Source of the DNA: a virus
DNA: 24,345 nt
Reading direction: 5' to 3' (one strand)
Virus record (IMG/VR): IMGVR_UViG_3300037014_000029
Coordinates: 1-24,345 of that record
A program made the translations under genes and the position numbers. Positions within the stretch are counted from its first letter, which is position 1; each line of letters opens with the position of its first letter. Positions 4,239 through 24,345 of the stretch are shown piece by piece. A model generated the notes under the pieces. It saw only the letters and a list, made by a program, of their open reading frames with translations. It did not search any database and was not told the origin of the DNA.

Positions 4239-6210
4239 GTTCATGCGCAAGCTCAAGGAAGTTCTCGCCGAGAACGTACCGGCGAACCTCATGATCGAGT
4301 GCGGCGAGCAGATTGAGCTTGCCGAGATCGCGGCCGGGAAGGACGAGAAGAAACCGAAGCGGTTCAAGATGAACGCTTACAACGGCGGGATGATGGAGCT
4401 CGGCGGCTGGTATCTCCCGGTCATTGTTGACCTCGAAGGAATGAGCGTACCGAAGCGCCAGCGGCCGATTCTGCGCGGGCACGACACGGCGCAGATCGTC
4501 GGTCACTCGGACAAGATCACCATTGCGGACGGGAAGATGCACGTCGAGGGCGTCGTGAGCGAGACGACCGCGGCGGGGCGCGAAGTCGCGGGGCTCGCGG
4601 CCGAAGGCTTCCCGTGGCAGGCGTCGATCAACGCGCGCGTGACAAAGGTCGTCCGCAAGGAGGAGGGAGAGAAGGCGACGGTGAACGGACAGGAGTTCGT
4701 CGGTCCGCTCCTCATCGCCAGGAAGTCGGTTCTGGGAGAAGTGAGCTTCGTTCCGCTCGGTGCGGATGGGAGCACAAGCGCGACCGTCGCGGCGAGTGCC
4801 GCGGGCGCGAAGATCAACGTCGAACAGGAGAACGTCATGCCGAAGACCAAACAGGAACAAGAGGTCGAGGCGACGGGCGCGCAGGAACAGGAAGTGGAAG
4901 CGCCGGTCGTCGAGAAGACCGACGAGGTCGCCAAGATTCGGGCGGAAGCCGCTCGCATCGCGTCGATCAACGTCGTATGCAAGGCCGCGCCTGAAATCGC
5001 GGCGCAGGCTGTGAAGGATGGCTGGAGCCCGGAGAAGACCGAGCTCCACGTCCTCAAGGCCGCGCAGGCCCGCAAGGAGCAGGATGCCGGTATCGGCTCG
5101 CCGCCGATCACGGCCGAAACCAAGAACGCCGACCTCCAGTCGATGAAGGCCGGTTTCATGGTGCAGTGCGGCGTCGCGGAGAAGACGATCGAAGCGCAGT
5201 TCGGTAAGGTCGCGCTTGACAAGAGTGACCGCTACCGTCGGATGCGTCTGAAAGAGGTGCTCGCCCTGGCCGCCAGTCTCGACGGCGTGCAGATCAAGCA
5301 CGGGATGAGCGAGCGCGATTTCATCGCCGCCGCCTTCAGCTCGATCAGCGTGACCGAGCTCCTGAGCGACAGCGCGAACAAGTCGCTCCTGGCCGCTTAC
5401 AACGCCGTTCCCGCCGTCGCGCGTCTCTTGGCGAAGGCGCTTTCCGCGAACGATTTCAAGACGCACAAGGGCGTGCGCCTGACCGGCGACCTTGTCTTCA
5501 AGAAGGTCGAGAACGCGGGCGAGATCACGCACGGGACTCTGGGCGAGGACAGCTTCCGCTACAGCCTCGACACCTACGGGCGCATGATCGGCCTGACCCG
5601 GCAGGATCTCATCAACGACGACCTGGGCGCGTTCCTCCAGCTCCCGCAGATGTTCGGTCGCGGTTCCGCCCTGATGGTCGAGAACCTGTTCTGGACTCTC
5701 GTCCTCGCGAACACCGGGAGCTTCTTCAGCGCCGGCAACCTCAACTATGCCAACGGCACTGATACGGCACTTTCGATCGATTCTCTCAGCGCGGCTGAAG
5801 AGCTGATGGCCGAGCAGGTGGACACCGAAGGACAGCCGATCATGGTCATGGGCAAGTATCTCGTTGTCCCGCCCGCACTGAGCGCGGTCGCACAGCAAAT
5901 CAACAAGAGCACCAACCTCATCGACGGCACCTCGTCCGCGAAGCAGGGCGAAGCGAACATCCATGCCGGTAAGTATGCGCCGGTGATGAGCCCGTATCTC
6001 AAGGGCTCCCCGAAGGTGTGGTACCTCTGGGGCGATCCGATGGACGTTGCGGCCTTCGGCATCGCATGGCTCAACGGCGTGCAGACACCGACGATCGAGG
6101 AAGTCCCCGTCAGCGGCGAGTATCTCGGCCGCGCGTGGCGCGGGTATCTTGACGTGGGCGTTTGCCAGATCGACAAGCGCGGCGCCGTCAAGATGAAGGG
6201 CGAAGCCTGA
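4231..6210 (+). CDS. Fused prohead protease, scaffold-like region and major capsid protein
   Basis: One reading frame carries what lambda and HK97 split into protease, scaffold and capsid genes. Numbering from the upstream ATG at 4225, the protease part (about 1-190) shows GHD with His86, an EGVVS strand, WQAS with Ser134, and LGEVSFVPLGAD with Glu172, the usual His/Ser/Glu layout of HK97-type (U35) prohead proteases. Residues about 195-250 are rich in Gln, Glu, Lys and Val and look like a scaffold/linker. The remainder, with DRYRRMRLKEVL, SFRYSLDTYGRMIGLTRQDL and NDDLGAF, is a HK97-fold capsid protein of the Mu-like/GpE-like group. Start: GGAGG at 4218-4222 sits 8 nt before the ATG at 4231 but only 2 nt before the one at 4225, so 4231 is preferred. 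An internal start at 4837 is likely. Confidence 0.88.
   Translation: MPKFMRKLKEVLAENVPANLMIECGEQIELAEIAAGKDEKKPKRFKMNAYNGGMMELGGWYLPVIVDLEGMSVPKRQRPILRGHDTAQIVGHSDKITIADGKMHVEGVVSETTAAGREVAGLAAEGFPWQASINARVTKVVRKEEGEKATVNGQEFVGPLLIARKSVLGEVSFVPLGADGSTSATVAASAAGAKINVEQENVMPKTKQEQEVEATGAQEQEVEAPVVEKTDEVAKIRAEAARIASINVVCKAAPEIAAQAVKDGWSPEKTELHVLKAAQARKEQDAGIGSPPITAETKNADLQSMKAGFMVQCGVAEKTIEAQFGKVALDKSDRYRRMRLKEVLALAASLDGVQIKHGMSERDFIAAAFSSISVTELLSDSANKSLLAAYNAVPAVARLLAKALSANDFKTHKGVRLTGDLVFKKVENAGEITHGTLGEDSFRYSLDTYGRMIGLTRQDLINDDLGAFLQLPQMFGRGSALMVENLFWTLVLANTGSFFSAGNLNYANGTDTALSIDSLSAAEELMAEQVDTEGQPIMVMGKYLVVPPALSAVAQQINKSTNLIDGTSSAKQGEANIHAGKYAPVMSPYLKGSPKVWYLWGDPMDVAAFGIAWLNGVQTPTIEEVPVSGEYLGRAWRGYLDVGVCQIDKRGAVKMKGEA
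4826..4839 (+). promoter_or_regulatory. Internal ribosome-binding site and ATG for a separate scaffold/capsid product
   Basis: AGGAG at 4826-4830 lies 6 nt before an in-frame ATG at 4837 (residue 205 counted from 4225), at the junction between the protease domain and the Gln/Glu-rich linker. Translation from here would give a protein of about 457 residues lacking the protease, comparable in logic to lambda Nu3, which starts inside C. This would supply the large excess of capsid over protease that a prohead needs. Confidence 0.6.
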
Positions 6211-14053: not shown

Positions 14054-14602
14054 ATGCGCCGGTTTAGACCGAAGGCTTGCGTTCATTGTGGGAAAGAATT
14101 TACGCCGCGTTCGCGCACGCACGCATGGTGTGAGGATGCAGAGTGCCAACGGGTCAAGAACGCATACCAAAAAGAAGAGCGCAAAGCGTTCTTTAAACGG
14201 CGCGCGAAAAATCCTGAGTACATACGCAAGCAGAAGGAATGGTATAAAAAGAATACGCATCGACACAAGCAATACAGAGAGAATATGAACCGGGACCATC
14301 CGGCAAAGTGGATACTCGGGAACGCGAAGACGCGGGCGAAAATGTTCGGCCTAGAGTTCAGCATCTCGGAAAAGGATATTTCGATACCTAATACATGTCC
14401 TGTCCTCGGAATTCCCCTTCGTAGAGGGAAAGGAAGACAAGAAGATGGATCTCCATCGATTGATCGGATTCTCCCGTCAATCGGTTACGTTCGCGGGAAT
14501 ATCGTTGTAGTGAGCGCGTTAGCAAACAGAATCAAGAACAGTGCGACAGTAGAACAGATTCAAGCCGTAGCTGATTTTTATAGAAAGCTGGTGACGAAAT
14601 GA
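14054..14602 (+). CDS. HNH-type homing endonuclease-like protein
   Basis: About 182 residues. An N-terminal zinc finger with Cys9-x2-Cys12 and Cys26-x4-Cys31 is followed by a long basic helix. The C-terminal half carries CPVLGIPL, then SPSIDRI with GYVRGNIVVVSALANRIKNSAT, the signature of phage HNH/endonuclease VII-like homing enzymes (SxDRIDxxxGYxxGNxxxxSxxANxMKxxAT). An obvious first catalytic His is not seen, so activity is unproven. The gene is visibly richer in A and T than its neighbours, has only a weak GGA upstream of its ATG, and overlaps the next gene by ATGA. All of this fits a mobile insertion between structural and lysis-like genes. Confidence 0.75.
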   Translation: MRRFRPKACVHCGKEFTPRSRTHAWCEDAECQRVKNAYQKEERKAFFKRRAKNPEYIRKQKEWYKKNTHRHKQYRENMNRDHPAKWILGNAKTRAKMFGLEFSISEKDISIPNTCPVLGIPLRRGKGRQEDGSPSIDRILPSIGYVRGNIVVVSALANRIKNSATVEQIQAVADFYRKLVTK

Positions 14603-17817: not shown

Positions 17818-18534
17818 ATGGCTGGAGATCCGCTGAGGAAGGTAGCGCCAGGCGCGCCGCTCGTCATTCCGGCGGCGGCGTACAACGCCTTCATTGACGC
17901 CGTGCGCGAACTCAAGTCCATGCAGACGAGCGGTCCGGAGGCGCTCAAGGCTGGACTCCCACATTCAAATATTGTCCGCTGCGTTAATCAAGTCGGCGCG
18001 GAGATCCTGCAATATGGCGTGGTCGGTCTTGACGATCCGGTGACGACCTGCGACTCGGCGGACGCCAACACGGTGCAGACGTTCTCCGCAAACGATCGGC
18101 TATTCAAGGCCGTGGTACCGACCGTGGCTAATCACGCGGACAGATTCGCGCTTGCTATGTTTTCGGTAGAAAACAACGCGGAGGCTATCGGCTCATTCGC
18201 GGTCGCGGGGATCTATCCTTGCAAGGTGGACGTCACGAATGAAGCTCATGTATTCGCGACGGTCAAGGAGGGGTCAATCGAGATGCTTGCCAGCGCCGAT
18301 TCTGGGCTTGCGCAAATTCTCTGGAAAGAGCCAGGGACGGGAACGAAGTGGGCGACCGTGCGTCTTGGCGGCACGGGCGGTGGCGGTGGATCCTTCGCGC
18401 TCGCGCAGGCGACTGCGGACGGCACGGGCGGCACCGTCACGCTCAAGGCGGTTCAGCACCTCGTCAACCTTTCGGCGAGTCCGAACTTCGAGCAGACAGG
18501 CGCGAACTTTACCGCGAAATACTTCAAGATATGA
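17818..18534 (+). CDS. Conserved phage structural protein, unknown function
   Basis: 238 residues; starts 1 nt after the previous stop with TAGGGA upstream. The N-terminus DPLRKVAPGAPLVIPAAAY, then NAFIDAVRELK is a recurrent opening in phage tail-tip operons of the same kind as the upstream gene. The rest is beta-like, with a Gly-rich linker at about 183-191 and a C-terminal domain with VTLKAVQHLVNLSASP. The stop overlaps the next ATG (ATGA). A baseplate or adhesin-anchor role is plausible from context only. Confidence 0.5.
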   Translation: MAGDPLRKVAPGAPLVIPAAAYNAFIDAVRELKSMQTSGPEALKAGLPHSNIVRCVNQVGAEILQYGVVGLDDPVTTCDSADANTVQTFSANDRLFKAVVPTVANHADRFALAMFSVENNAEAIGSFAVAGIYPCKVDVTNEAHVFATVKEGSIEMLASADSGLAQILWKEPGTGTKWATVRLGGTGGGGGSFALAQATADGTGGTVTLKAVQHLVNLSASPNFEQTGANFTAKYFKI

Positions 18535-21500
18535 GCCTGAATCCCCTCAATCCGCGCGAACCAAAAACGGCTGACATCTGCTTGCGGTCGGGCGAGGACG
18601 TTTTGCCCATGCTCCCCGGCGCGTACACGCCATGCAAGGGCGAGCCATTCTTCACTGACCGCAAAGTGATCGTGCCGGTGGAGCCGTTCTACTCCGAGCC
18701 AAAGGCGCACGACGCGCCGGTTATTACCATCTCCGGGAGGATTGACCGCGAGCCGCCATTTTACGATCAGACGGATATGGCCATTGCAACGCCTTGCGTC
18801 GCTCCATTCCAATGGGATGACGCAACCGGCGCGGCGCTGGCGGCAAGCGTCCGGACGATAATTCTCGACACCGTTCCGGATGCCGACGCGACCGACGAGG
18901 AGAAGGCGCTTCCCGGATACGTTGCGAACCCTGGCCTACTCCTGTCCTCGCGGTCTATGGCAAAATTCGCACCATCCGCACCAGTCTACACCGACACGGG
19001 CGGAGTGGCATTTCTCTGGTCGCTTCCCATCGACCGGAACGAAATTGCGGTTACCTCGACCGTGAACCAGAAGCGGTACAAGATCACCAAGGTTGGCAGC
19101 ACAGCCGACTGGTCCGGTTGGGGTGGGCCGAATCCCGCCACCACTGGAGCGGAGTTTGTCGCCACCGGAGCGGGAAGCGGGACGGGCAAAGTCACACTGG
19201 CCCCGCTGGCACATCCGCTACTTCGGACAGGGCAGACGCGCTACACCTTCCCGGAAGTAACGAAGGTCGGCACCGCCTTCGCTGGAGATCCGTTCATCCC
19301 CGGAGAGGTCGGCAAGTTCACCTCTGGCAATCTGTCGGTGTGCGCCTATCGCTATGGCTTCCTGCTTGGCACGGCGCTCTGGTATATCGCGGTCAAGGTT
19401 GGTCGCGGCAAGGCGACATGGAACAAGGCCGCGAAGGCGTTGACGCTTGCCTGCAACACCGAGAACTCGACCATCTACTATTCGACGGATGGCTCTGCAC
19501 CAACCACGGAATACACCGGACCGATCTCCGTTACCGATACCAAGACCGTGCGGTGGTATGCTCGCAAGCTGAACGCGGATGCAACGCCGGTCCCTATGAT
19601 GCTCGACTCGGACGAATGGCAAACGTATATCGAGTACCAGGACGAAGCTCCGCCCGATGATTTTGAGACGGTTGTTTTCTCCACGCTTCCGGCCTTGCGT
19701 GACAATAACGCGATCACGATAGAGACGCAACTGCAACGAGCGCCGGCACTCTTCATCGCGCCGGCAGGTATAGGTGACGGTGACGCGCCGGACGATCCAA
19801 GCACCGCCGCCAAAATCATCGGCGTGTCCAGCGTTGCGGCTAACGCGACGGTATCCGGACAGGCATACAAAATCCTGTCGATCAATGATGGGATCGGCGG
19901 CGGGGATACAAACTGGCCGTCAATCGGCGCATGGCAAAATGTGGTCGGGGTAGAGTTCGTGGCGACCGGGGTAGGAAGCGGCACCGGTTCAGCGCAACTG
20001 ATCGGCAAAGCGCGGGGCGAACGAACCGTCACCGCCTCGCGGTACACCGGCGCATACCTCAAGCTGGTTCGCGGAGGAAGCGAGCCGCAGGGATGCTCGA
20101 CCAATGTTGATGCGGGGAGATTTACGGTCGGCAGGTTCTACAGGATCGAGGAAGTGGGCTCCACTAATTTTACGCTGATCGGCGCTGCGGCAAACACCGT
20201 AGGCGAGGAGTTCAAGGCGACCGGCACCGGCTCCGGGACCGGGAAGGCATCGCGGATCGGCGGATTGGAGTACGCCGCCACACTGACCGAAAAGGCCGTG
20301 ACCGCTCTTGCGGAAGGCGACCGATGCGTCATCTCAGAAATCGGCAATACCAACTTCACGCTGATCGGCGCAAACGCAAACACGGTCGGCAGCGAATTTG
20401 TGGCGACCGGCGCGGGAACGGGAACGGGCAAGGCGCTGGCGTATGATGCGTGGGTTGATTACGAAGCGCCCATTGCAGAAGCCGACTTCGCTCCTGGCAT
20501 TGTGTGGTTCCGGCGCAAGCGGCTTGACGATACCCACTACACGCGGGACTTCCGGTTGCCGTGGTTCCTGGGCGATATCACTCTGCGGGCCGTATGGGAC
20601 AAAGACGCCGGGACATTAACGCTTTCAATCGACGAAGCAACCGCTGCCACCGCCCGCTATTTGAAAATCTGGTATGGCACGGGCGCGAGCGCAGACACGC
20701 TCTACACCGGGCCGATCACGGTAACCGAGACGACGACTTTCCGCATGGCGGTTTGGCACATCAATGAAAATATCCCGTACGACTTTATCACTTCAACGGA
20801 CGAATGGGCGCTTAACGTCATTGACCCGACCAGTACCGTTGACTTCACCGACACGGAAGCGGCCACGCTCACCGGCACCGTTCCGACGCAGACCTTCACG
20901 CAATCCGCCGATCTGGTGTGGGCGAGCAACGGTTTTTACTTTCCAGCGGCCAAGCCCTTTTCATCCGACTCGGCAATCATCGTTCGAGGCGGTTACAACG
21001 AAGACTTCACGGAGCGCGATGTGAAAGGAACGAAGGCCACATTCCCCTCGCTCTCCGTTGCCAACGGGATTCTGGATGGCGTATGCTGCGCTCCAGAGTA
21101 CACAGCAACAACCATCGTGAAGGGGCTGAAAGCATCCATCCTCTACAACTGCCATATCCCGACCGTGACAATAGGAGCTGATCCGTTTGATCTTGACCCG
21201 GAAGAAGTGAACGTCACCTGCCTCGATGGTGAGTGCTACTACTGTTCTATCGACCTCACCTGCAAGCGCTCGGACGTACAACATGTGACGGTCGTGCTCA
21301 CCATAGGGACGGCGACCGATTGCGATTTTGTTGCTGATGCGTCCTCGGCAGATGGCGCGGATTTCCCGTGGTCCCTCGGACACTATGCCGACACGTTCCT
21401 GACTCTCAGTTCCGGGCTCGTGTATGGCGGAACGGTTGACATCACAGCGGTATCCGGGGAAGGCGGGCTTGGCGGACCAGCGCAAATTCCGCCTCCGGCT

Positions 21501-22214
21501 GGCGGGTTTTCCACTGCGACCGTCACCATGCCGCTATATGGAGCCGTGACCGGCACAATCAGCGTGACCTCCGGGGATGGCGGATGGGGGTCTCCAGGTG
21601 GATGGTCTAAAGCTGTAGGCGACTTTAGCGGCGCAATCGGGAACGGTGGGGAAGTCGATATTACGGTCGTGTCCGGAGACGGTGGAGAGGCGTCAATTAC
21701 GGTTCCCGATAGGCCATCTTTGGAACTCTTCGGAACGACGCTGGCGACGTGCGCCGTTGGGGTCACGGACGGCGGAACTGCAACAGTTAACCTCACCTCT
21801 GGAAATGGGGCGAGTTACTCATGGATTGGATTTACGCGCACAGCGCTCACCATCACAGCGCTGGATCACGGTGGGACCCTGACGGCAGCATTGGCGCACG
21901 GTACGGGAAGCACCTTCCCCCCGGTCGGGCCATCCGACGGGGAATGGGGCGCATCCTACTCAGAGGTCATCATGGCCGTTGCACCGATCTATCCGGGGAC
22001 GCTCACCGTCACCGGACGGGACGGCGGGAACGGGTACTACACAGCGCCTAACGCGAGCACACCCTACATGGGACCATACTATTACCCGTCGTATCCGACC
22101 ATCGGAGCATGGGCCGGATGGTACAGCGGAACGCCGAACGGCGACGGCGCTCCGCTCAGTGGCTACACGACGCCGCAGGGGACTGGCGTGGCGCTTGGGA
22201 GGTATTGGGAGTAG
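18531..22214 (+). CDS. Large modular tail adhesin with chitobiase-type and repeated modules
   Basis: 1227 residues; the ATG at 18531 overlaps the previous stop, and the longer frame upstream is shadow sequence. After a conserved head (residues 1-180) the protein contains four copies of a roughly 40-residue module at about 183-223, 446-491, 537-573 and 599-636, with the core VGSTNFTLIGAxANTVG, then EFxATGxGSGTG. Two CHB_HEX_C-type domains are seen at about 295-350 (IYYSTDGSAPTTEYTGPISV) and 687-745 (TLYTGPITVTETTTFRMAV). The C-terminal 300 residues are Gly/Thr-rich, with GGTVDITAVSGEGG-like repeats suggesting a beta-helix or stacked sheets. It probably forms the receptor-binding fibre or side fibre of the tail. 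No enzymatic residues are apparent. Confidence 0.72.
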   Translation: MSLNPLNPREPKTADICLRSGEDVLPMLPGAYTPCKGEPFFTDRKVIVPVEPFYSEPKAHDAPVITISGRIDREPPFYDQTDMAIATPCVAPFQWDDATGAALAASVRTIILDTVPDADATDEEKALPGYVANPGLLLSSRSMAKFAPSAPVYTDTGGVAFLWSLPIDRNEIAVTSTVNQKRYKITKVGSTADWSGWGGPNPATTGAEFVATGAGSGTGKVTLAPLAHPLLRTGQTRYTFPEVTKVGTAFAGDPFIPGEVGKFTSGNLSVCAYRYGFLLGTALWYIAVKVGRGKATWNKAAKALTLACNTENSTIYYSTDGSAPTTEYTGPISVTDTKTVRWYARKLNADATPVPMMLDSDEWQTYIEYQDEAPPDDFETVVFSTLPALRDNNAITIETQLQRAPALFIAPAGIGDGDAPDDPSTAAKIIGVSSVAANATVSGQAYKILSINDGIGGGDTNWPSIGAWQNVVGVEFVATGVGSGTGSAQLIGKARGERTVTASRYTGAYLKLVRGGSEPQGCSTNVDAGRFTVGRFYRIEEVGSTNFTLIGAAANTVGEEFKATGTGSGTGKASRIGGLEYAATLTEKAVTALAEGDRCVISEIGNTNFTLIGANANTVGSEFVATGAGTGTGKALAYDAWVDYEAPIAEADFAPGIVWFRRKRLDDTHYTRDFRLPWFLGDITLRAVWDKDAGTLTLSIDEATAATARYLKIWYGTGASADTLYTGPITVTETTTFRMAVWHINENIPYDFITSTDEWALNVIDPTSTVDFTDTEAATLTGTVPTQTFTQSADLVWASNGFYFPAAKPFSSDSAIIVRGGYNEDFTERDVKGTKATFPSLSVANGILDGVCCAPEYTATTIVKGLKASILYNCHIPTVTIGADPFDLDPEEVNVTCLDGECYYCSIDLTCKRSDVQHVTVVLTIGTATDCDFVADASSADGADFPWSLGHYADTFLTLSSGLVYGGTVDITAVSGEGGLGGPAQIPPPAGGFSTATVTMPLYGAVTGTISVTSGDGGWGSPGGWSKAVGDFSGAIGNGGEVDITVVSGDGGEASITVPDRPSLELFGTTLATCAVGVTDGGTATVNLTSGNGASYSWIGFTRTALTITALDHGGTLTAALAHGTGSTFPPVGPSDGEWGASYSEVIMAVAPIYPGTLTVTGRDGGNGYYTAPNASTPYMGPYYYPSYPTIGAWAGWYSGTPNGDGAPLSGYTTPQGTGVALGRYWE

Positions 22215-23798: not shown

Positions 23799-23812
23799 CC
23801 AGGAGATATTCC

Positions 23813-24345
23813 ATGTGCAAATTTATCAGCTTTTTTCACCAACCAGGAACGGACCAGATTTTCGTCAAGGACCTGGCGTCTCACAGCAACACTGAGGGGC
23901 ATTTGCCGAAAGGAATCTGGAGGGAAGGCCATTACCTGCCGACCGGAGAAATTGAGGCGAGAGTTGCGGGCGAAGACCGCGCGACGAATGAGCAATGCGC
24001 CGACCTGATCCGTGCACGCTTCCCGTCTTTCGCTGCGTTCTTTTCATTCTGCCTGCGTGAGCTAGGGGCGGAAAAAGAATACGGCGGCTGGCTGGACCTG
24101 AGCGGCCTGACGAGCGCGAAGGACCTCGTTCTGCCGAAGACGGTCGGCGGCTCGCTGGACCTGAGCGGCCTGACGAGCGCGAAGGACCTCGTTCTGCCGA
24201 AGACGGTCGGCGGCTCGCTGTACCTGAGCGGCCTGACGAGCGCGAAGGACCTCGTTCTGCCGAAGACGGTCGGCGGCTCGCTGTACCTGAGCGGCCTGAC
24301 GAGCGCGAAGGACCTCGTTCTGCCGAAGACGGTCGGCGGCTCGCT
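23813..24345 (+). CDS. Partial gene: N-terminal domain plus tandem 21-residue repeats
   Basis: The gene starts at ATG 23813 with AGGAGA 7 nt upstream and runs off the window without a stop. Residues 1-93 form a compact domain (MCKFISFFHQPGTDQIFV, SHSNTEGHLPKGIWREGHY, LPTGEIEARVAG, AFFSFCLRELG). From residue 94 on come identical 21-residue repeats with LxLSGLTSAKDLVLPKTVGG. The pattern of a hydrophobic residue every few positions and a GLTSA turn resembles leucine-rich or beta-solenoid repeats found in phage and bacterial proteins, perhaps used for binding a surface or inhibitor target. The final copy number cannot be seen. Confidence 0.62.
   Translation, partial: MCKFISFFHQPGTDQIFVKDLASHSNTEGHLPKGIWREGHYLPTGEIEARVAGEDRATNEQCADLIRARFPSFAAFFSFCLRELGAEKEYGGWLDLSGLTSAKDLVLPKTVGGSLDLSGLTSAKDLVLPKTVGGSLYLSGLTSAKDLVLPKTVGGSLYLSGLTSAKDLVLPKTVGGS
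24092..24343 (+). repeat. Tandem array of four 63-bp repeats, continuing past the window
   Basis: Four direct copies at 24092, 24155, 24218 and 24281. They are identical except for one codon (GAC in copies 1-2, TAC in 3-4). The unit is a whole number of codons (21), so copies can expand or shrink without breaking the frame. Near-perfect DNA identity points to very recent expansion or ongoing homogenisation. Confidence 0.97.

Follow-up and report, generated by a model that had tools for sequence, protein, structure and literature searches.

Repeat proteins that combine a scaffold evolving in concert with a few positions held variable are already known among fungal recognition receptors. In phages, the variable proteins of diversity-generating retroelements (DGRs) combine a constant region with a C-terminal one that varies, as does the protein described here, and DGR targets of the DUF6273 type have been reported (PMC11792537, PMC10743442); in the protein family described here, in contrast, variation sits in tandem units. 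The phage repeat shares with LRRs of the LPX-like and Leptospira LPKEIG types the LxL core and the LPK(E/T)(I/V) motif, but differs from LRR types in its turn of 21 or 20 residues and in the GG preceding the strand. A related 20-residue repeat, found in Edwardsiella phage Edno5, matches Pfam DUF5649 just below the curated cut-off (E 4e-5), whereas the protein analysed here has no DUF5649 match.

The window, by which we mean the entire stretch of DNA analysed, is a whole IMG/VR contig, a linear virus contig of 24,345 bp. Its source is a tailed phage, as predicted from recognisable terminase, lambda-like portal, capsid-protease fusion and tape-measure genes. A cysteine-rich, endonuclease-like ORF in the tail module (14054-14602) may encode a homing endonuclease, and an ORF of 1288 residues (18348-22214), which features glycine-rich stretches and has no family match, is perhaps a tail or fibre protein. 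The array gene, the features of which are listed in Table 1, lies at the right end of the contig, starting at 23813 and leaving the contig without a stop. The neighbouring genes present on the contig belong to the tail region or are small and unknown, and the contig stops before any recombination module.

Table 1. Coordinates of the array gene and its repeat units in the window
Feature	Coordinates	Strand	Basis or remark
AGGAG ribosome-binding site	23801..23805	+	read from sequence; 7 nt upstream of ATG
Array ORF, 177 residues, no stop before contig end	23813..24343	+	full-length homologues in other phages
Constant N-domain, residues 1-90	23813..24082	+	alignments A3 and A9, AF2 model
Repeat unit 1, GGWLDLSGLTSAKDLVLPKTV	24083..24145	+	TRF, unit alignment
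Repeat unit 2, GGSLDLSGLTSAKDLVLPKTV	24146..24208	+	TRF, unit alignment
Repeat unit 3, GGSLYLSGLTSAKDLVLPKTV	24209..24271	+	TRF, unit alignment
Repeat unit 4, same sequence as unit 3	24272..24334	+	TRF, unit alignment
Start of unit 5, truncated by contig end	24335..24345	+	sequence
Final 124 bp, exact repeat of 24159-24282	24222..24345	+	

The 63-bp in-frame tandem array reported in the first-pass annotation is real: TRF detected 4.2 copies at 24082-24345 (score 507, 99% match), spanned by the ORF starting at 23813, along with one further, weak tandem repeat in the contig. The four copies had been said to differ by a single base; two columns actually vary across the four full units, both non-synonymously, namely TGG/TCG (W/S) at residue 3 of the unit and GAC/TAC (D/Y) at residue 5. 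An N-terminal domain does precede the array, although its length is about 90 rather than 93 residues, as the first unit begins at residue 91 (24083). The array is likewise cut as described, not by an arbitrary window edge but by the end of the record itself. Chance is excluded for this array because a full-length relative, L002, carries 8.7 units of the same repeat. The L002 protein, which is complete (281 residues, including a short tail after the last unit), matches the window protein over its full length (56% identity, E 6e-66). DNA mimicry was also considered, but the repeat unit, with two or one Asp and two Lys, has approximately no net charge.

The window array belongs to an unannotated phage protein family, of which no description was found in the literature searched. 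Pfam, NCBIfam and PDB sequence searches with the window protein returned nothing usable, and PHROG 19821, of unknown function, was a weak match (E 4e-5). A plasmid match in Priestia was discarded because it falls in a gene with collagen-like repeats, translated in a different frame. In the larger of the scans, searches of IMG/VR with N-domain alignments identified 14 loci. Two scans covering the genomes of 84,980 bacterial and archaeal species detected no copy of the domain, and searching named phages with it gave no convincing match. Residues M1, C2, S6, F7, H9, P11, S23, H24, T27, W36, E38, G39, H40, Y41, P43, R50, F73 and F76 are invariant throughout the family (alignments A3 and A9). Intact members occur as one copy per contig; the L013 gene is broken by stops. 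Repeats of the same type also follow other N-termini in EBPR podovirus 1, Edwardsiella phage Edno5, Tetrasphaera phage TJE1 and further contigs. No annotation exists for the array ORF of EBPR podovirus 1 (L003, 1-780), and at the TJE1 repeat ORF (L005, 3345-4212) the annotated feature is a hypothetical gene that covers it on the opposite strand.

AF2 models of the window protein (pLDDT 92) and of L002 (pLDDT 91) feature a compact N-domain followed by a solenoid. The modelled N-domain, in which pLDDT is mostly above 90, has the order beta-alpha-beta-beta-alpha-alpha, and each turn of the solenoid has a pair of short strands, of which one covers residues 4-5. Neither model retrieved a similar solved fold from the PDB. 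Tad2-like proteins, which recurred among Foldseek matches, were rejected (E 2-10, TM about 0.1). Since AF2 is known to predict spurious beta-solenoids with high confidence when repeats are near-perfect (PMC11795689), the model of the array is weak evidence. The window protein has no Pfam LRR match; the EBPR podovirus array matches LRR_1 (E 4e-17), and the family profile matched the LRR chains 6lx0 (E 1e-7) and 4tzh (E 2e-5) in the PDB, partly through composition and an LPKEIG-like motif. The solenoid envisaged in the first-pass annotation is likely, and its use as a binding surface possible.

Differences among units are concentrated at residues 3, 5 and 7 of the GGxLxLxG motif. This concentration was first spotted in L002, L008 and L009 and was analysed in 17 arrays, eight from the N-domain family and nine, held out, from outside it; the window array contributes just two variable sites. 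Residues 3, 5 and 7 account for 29 of the 66 non-synonymous variants in the family arrays (16% expected), 36 of 68 in the held-out arrays (17% expected, p 2.5e-11) and 65 of 134 overall (17% expected, p 2e-17). The pN value of 0.51 at these positions compares with 0.11 elsewhere in the unit and with these arrays' pS of 0.27 (p 4e-6 overall and 4e-4 for the held-out arrays), where all p-values, including those above, assume independent variants, an assumption violated by copying between units, and show concentration rather than calibrated selection. We firmly conclude that variants are concentrated at residues 3, 5 and 7. Two arrays preceded by another N-domain (L042 and L043) are hypervariable at these positions as well.

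The intervening residues are nearly fixed, residue 4 being leucine in 101 of 102 units (isoleucine in one) and residue 6 leucine in all. Position 5 is mostly occupied by D, Y, N or H, with a third base that is constant in nearly every array, while S, Y or W are seen at position 3 and S, R or N at position 7. The same small set (D/Y/N, S/Y/W, S/R/N) recurs across arrays that have different codons and scaffolds. Units are homogenised within each of the 17 arrays. Within-array diversity at the three positions amounts to 0.6-0.8 of between-array diversity in the 21-residue class and to 0.56-1.01 in the 20-residue class. From position 8 on, where many positions differ strongly between arrays, the ratio is 0-0.34; for instance, positions 13, 14 and 19 of the 21-residue class are variable between arrays but hardly within them. 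The comparison points to concerted evolution of the arrays, with a common repertoire retained at three alternating positions of the strand. Of the suggestion that expansion is recent or maintained, homogenisation or maintenance of the units stands, but "recently expanded" does not suffice as a full account, since comparison with 16 other arrays shows the more specific pattern of concerted evolution in which three positions are kept variable.

Conceivably, the arrays are nearly neutral products of slippage, the protein serving as a spacer or rod in which exposed residues are free and buried ones are constrained. The units are tandem and near-identical, most of the variation in many solenoids falls at solvent-exposed positions, and the N:S ratio within positions 3, 5 and 7 alone fits neutrality, being at most marginally above it (p 0.05 and 0.67). 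However, these positions have a pN roughly double the synonymous rate of the arrays concerned, the same residues recur despite different codons and scaffolds, and the changeable positions 13, 14 and 19 hardly vary within arrays. We regard near-neutrality as unlikely, and infer with moderate confidence, from pN exceeding pS, that diversifying selection keeps the three positions diverse.

Our preferred reading, which we consider somewhat more probable than its negation, is that of a phage recognition protein of variable length and variable chemistry, built from a constant N-domain and an LRR-like solenoid with a concerted scaffold. A constant N-domain of ~90 residues would be followed, in this phage accessory protein, by a solenoid of 21-residue turns. 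As the comparison of arrays suggests, unequal recombination or slippage between 63-bp units would change the length by whole turns and homogenise the scaffold, while selection would keep residues 3, 5 and 7 of GGxLxLxG diverse. These residues flank leucines 4 and 6, both near-invariant, in an alternating pattern, and would thus come to lie on one exposed strand face, forming a candidate binding surface that can be changed in both length and chemistry. A variable binding protein is the most likely identity of the window protein. It would most likely operate within the infected cell, where its recognition would be directed against a variable partner from the host or from a rival phage.

The intracellular role is proposed because relatives often adjoin early recombination genes. 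L009 adjoins Erf and a RecE-like exonuclease, and homologues of this pair are carried by L014; a RecE-like exonuclease adjoins L021, and YqaJ lies near L012, L033 and L027, together with RecT in the first two. In EBPR podovirus 1, Edno5 and TJE1, RecT/ERF and exonuclease genes are annotated beside the arrays. Pfam detects RecT in just 2 of the 15 contigs of the N-domain family, so the recombination setting rests on mixed annealing proteins and exonucleases. Most relatives with informative neighbours adjoin early recombination genes, counted as raw occurrences. This setting corresponds to the early accessory region of many phages, where anti-host genes are often located. A reverse transcriptase gene is found about 25 kb from the array gene in the contig of L016 (G006, 101779-102474).

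The position of the window gene after the tail region would also suit a late protein of the virion or of lysis, such as a variable adhesion protein, and the gene following the L002 array encodes a protein that resembles a secreted cysteine amidase. Yet searches with the window protein gave no tail-fibre or other structural similarity, and the recombination genes that adjoin most relatives with informative neighbours argue against a late function, which we consider improbable. Still less probable is a TALE-like code, in which the 3/5/7 triplet of each turn would read one nucleic acid or glycan subunit. Units that are nearly alike and vary chiefly at fixed positions resembling specificity determinants, and neighbouring genes whose products act on DNA, are consistent with such a code; however, no discrete code was found in the arrays, and the modelled fold is unlike that of known code-reading repeats.

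Array length varies in whole-unit steps, as expected if copy number shifts without frameshift, and the recommended search of metagenomes for the same N-terminus with other repeat counts recovered relatives with about 1.5 to 18 units. Complete members of the N-domain family carry about 1.5 (L012), 2.5 (L014), 6 (L009), 8 (L016), about 8 (L019), 8.7 (L002), 10 (L008) and 18 (L007) units, and closed relatives reach a stop roughly 10-20 residues past the last full unit. In the window, copy number is not fixed by the assembly, because the final 124 bp are an exact repeat. The contig breaks off a few bases at most from the point at which a 127-mer loses its last distinguishing base (24221), suggesting assembly at k=127. 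Assemblies are known to break at tandem repeats (PMC6868369), and the assembly trouble foreseen in the first-pass annotation is borne out both by this duplicated end and by the 12 of 21 IMG/VR contigs containing two or more units that end inside the array, against 1.2 expected for arrays assumed to be 600 bp long (P about 3e-11). L019 and L020, identical over 6 kb upstream, are discordant inside the array, one closing it and the other stopping within it with a differing fourth unit. The remaining broken contigs have a shorter repeated end (0-64 bp), which implies that strain mixture or low coverage must contribute too. That assembly produced the identical copies themselves would accord with the ending of the window contig and of so many others within arrays and with the L019/L020 discordance, but is scarcely credible, as complete, closed arrays of the same kind occur in eight other phage contigs and artefacts would not put differences at three codons.

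A repeat-bearing contig, L037, features a different N-domain, MCNFASGILTKDKEFWCDTSDSHEDII. Searching with this domain and one relative retrieved 43 loci, the C-termini of which are short tandem arrays of many kinds, often with alternating variable positions, and include the GGxLxLxG arrays of L042 and L043. The 169-kb phage contig behind L057 (L094-L097) carries nine N-domain copies with different arrays, and a 90-kb contig (L093) carries six N-domain matches, one copy being frameshifted. In six contigs (L069, L070, L071, L074, L075 and L079), an MC...SH N-domain is followed by a non-repeat C-terminus that is a DGR target. All six contain a reverse transcriptase, together with a template repeat of 86-89 bp located some 0.5 kb past the target gene (gene at locus 3001; repeat at about 4261-4352). 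A first template-repeat search with stricter settings had found none. Summed over the six contigs, two of which are identical here, 88 of 111 template-to-variable changes occur at adenines. The DUF6273 match of the DGR-form protein is below the curated cut-off, and no description of the L037-type N-domain was found in the literature searched. Dulem virus 35 and MT835516 carry tandem arrays after N-domains that share 55% identity with the DGR form. Because such similar N-domains precede either a DGR target or tandem arrays, the variable module seems exchangeable within this family, as far as sequence can tell.

The N-domain of this second, larger family is possibly related to that of the window. 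Comparison by hhalign of the window N-domain with the MC...DSHEDII family (A8) gave 87% probability over 37 columns, the first seven of which drive the score; a control keeping these seven columns and shuffling the rest scored equally, and the putative relationship rests mainly on a short N-terminal motif. The A8 model gives no match to the window. DGR activity was rejected as the direct cause of variation in the window's family: RVT_1 was detected neither in the window contig nor in 9 of 10 relatives' contigs, which are incomplete, and variation at position 3 is not adenine-specific, being TCG/TGG (window, L002) or TGG/GTA (L019). We tentatively suggest, as a doubtful extension, that both families belong to a widespread phage class in which a small constant Met-Cys N-domain carries an exchangeable hypervariable module, whether a homogenised solenoid whose variable positions are fixed or a lectin-like domain mutated by a DGR. 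Such proteins, at times encoded by several genes, would form a recognition repertoire that serves within the host or against rivals.

A clear example from a phage would suggest that these viruses possess a fast, length-changing binding system similar to that of fungal receptors, which, if so, short-read databases systematically truncate. Residues 3, 5 and 7 provide a concrete, testable prediction, and the array pattern helps explain why annotation of such genes is missing. The closest parallel is drawn by analogy with the Podospora anserina proteins HET-D and HET-E, which are fungal NLRs with beta-propeller repeats and a known ligand, whereas the phage protein has LRR-like repeats of 20-21 residues, preceded only by the ~90-residue N-domain; NLR/NACHT architecture was not found in it. 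The pattern of phage variation is nevertheless like that of these fungal recognition repeats. The WD40 repeats of HET-D and HET-E are, like the phage arrays, near-identical and subject to concerted evolution, with few hypervariable codons per repeat, located on the recognition face, and with an unstable repeat number that makes short-read assemblies unreliable (PMC12222747, PMC2873952).
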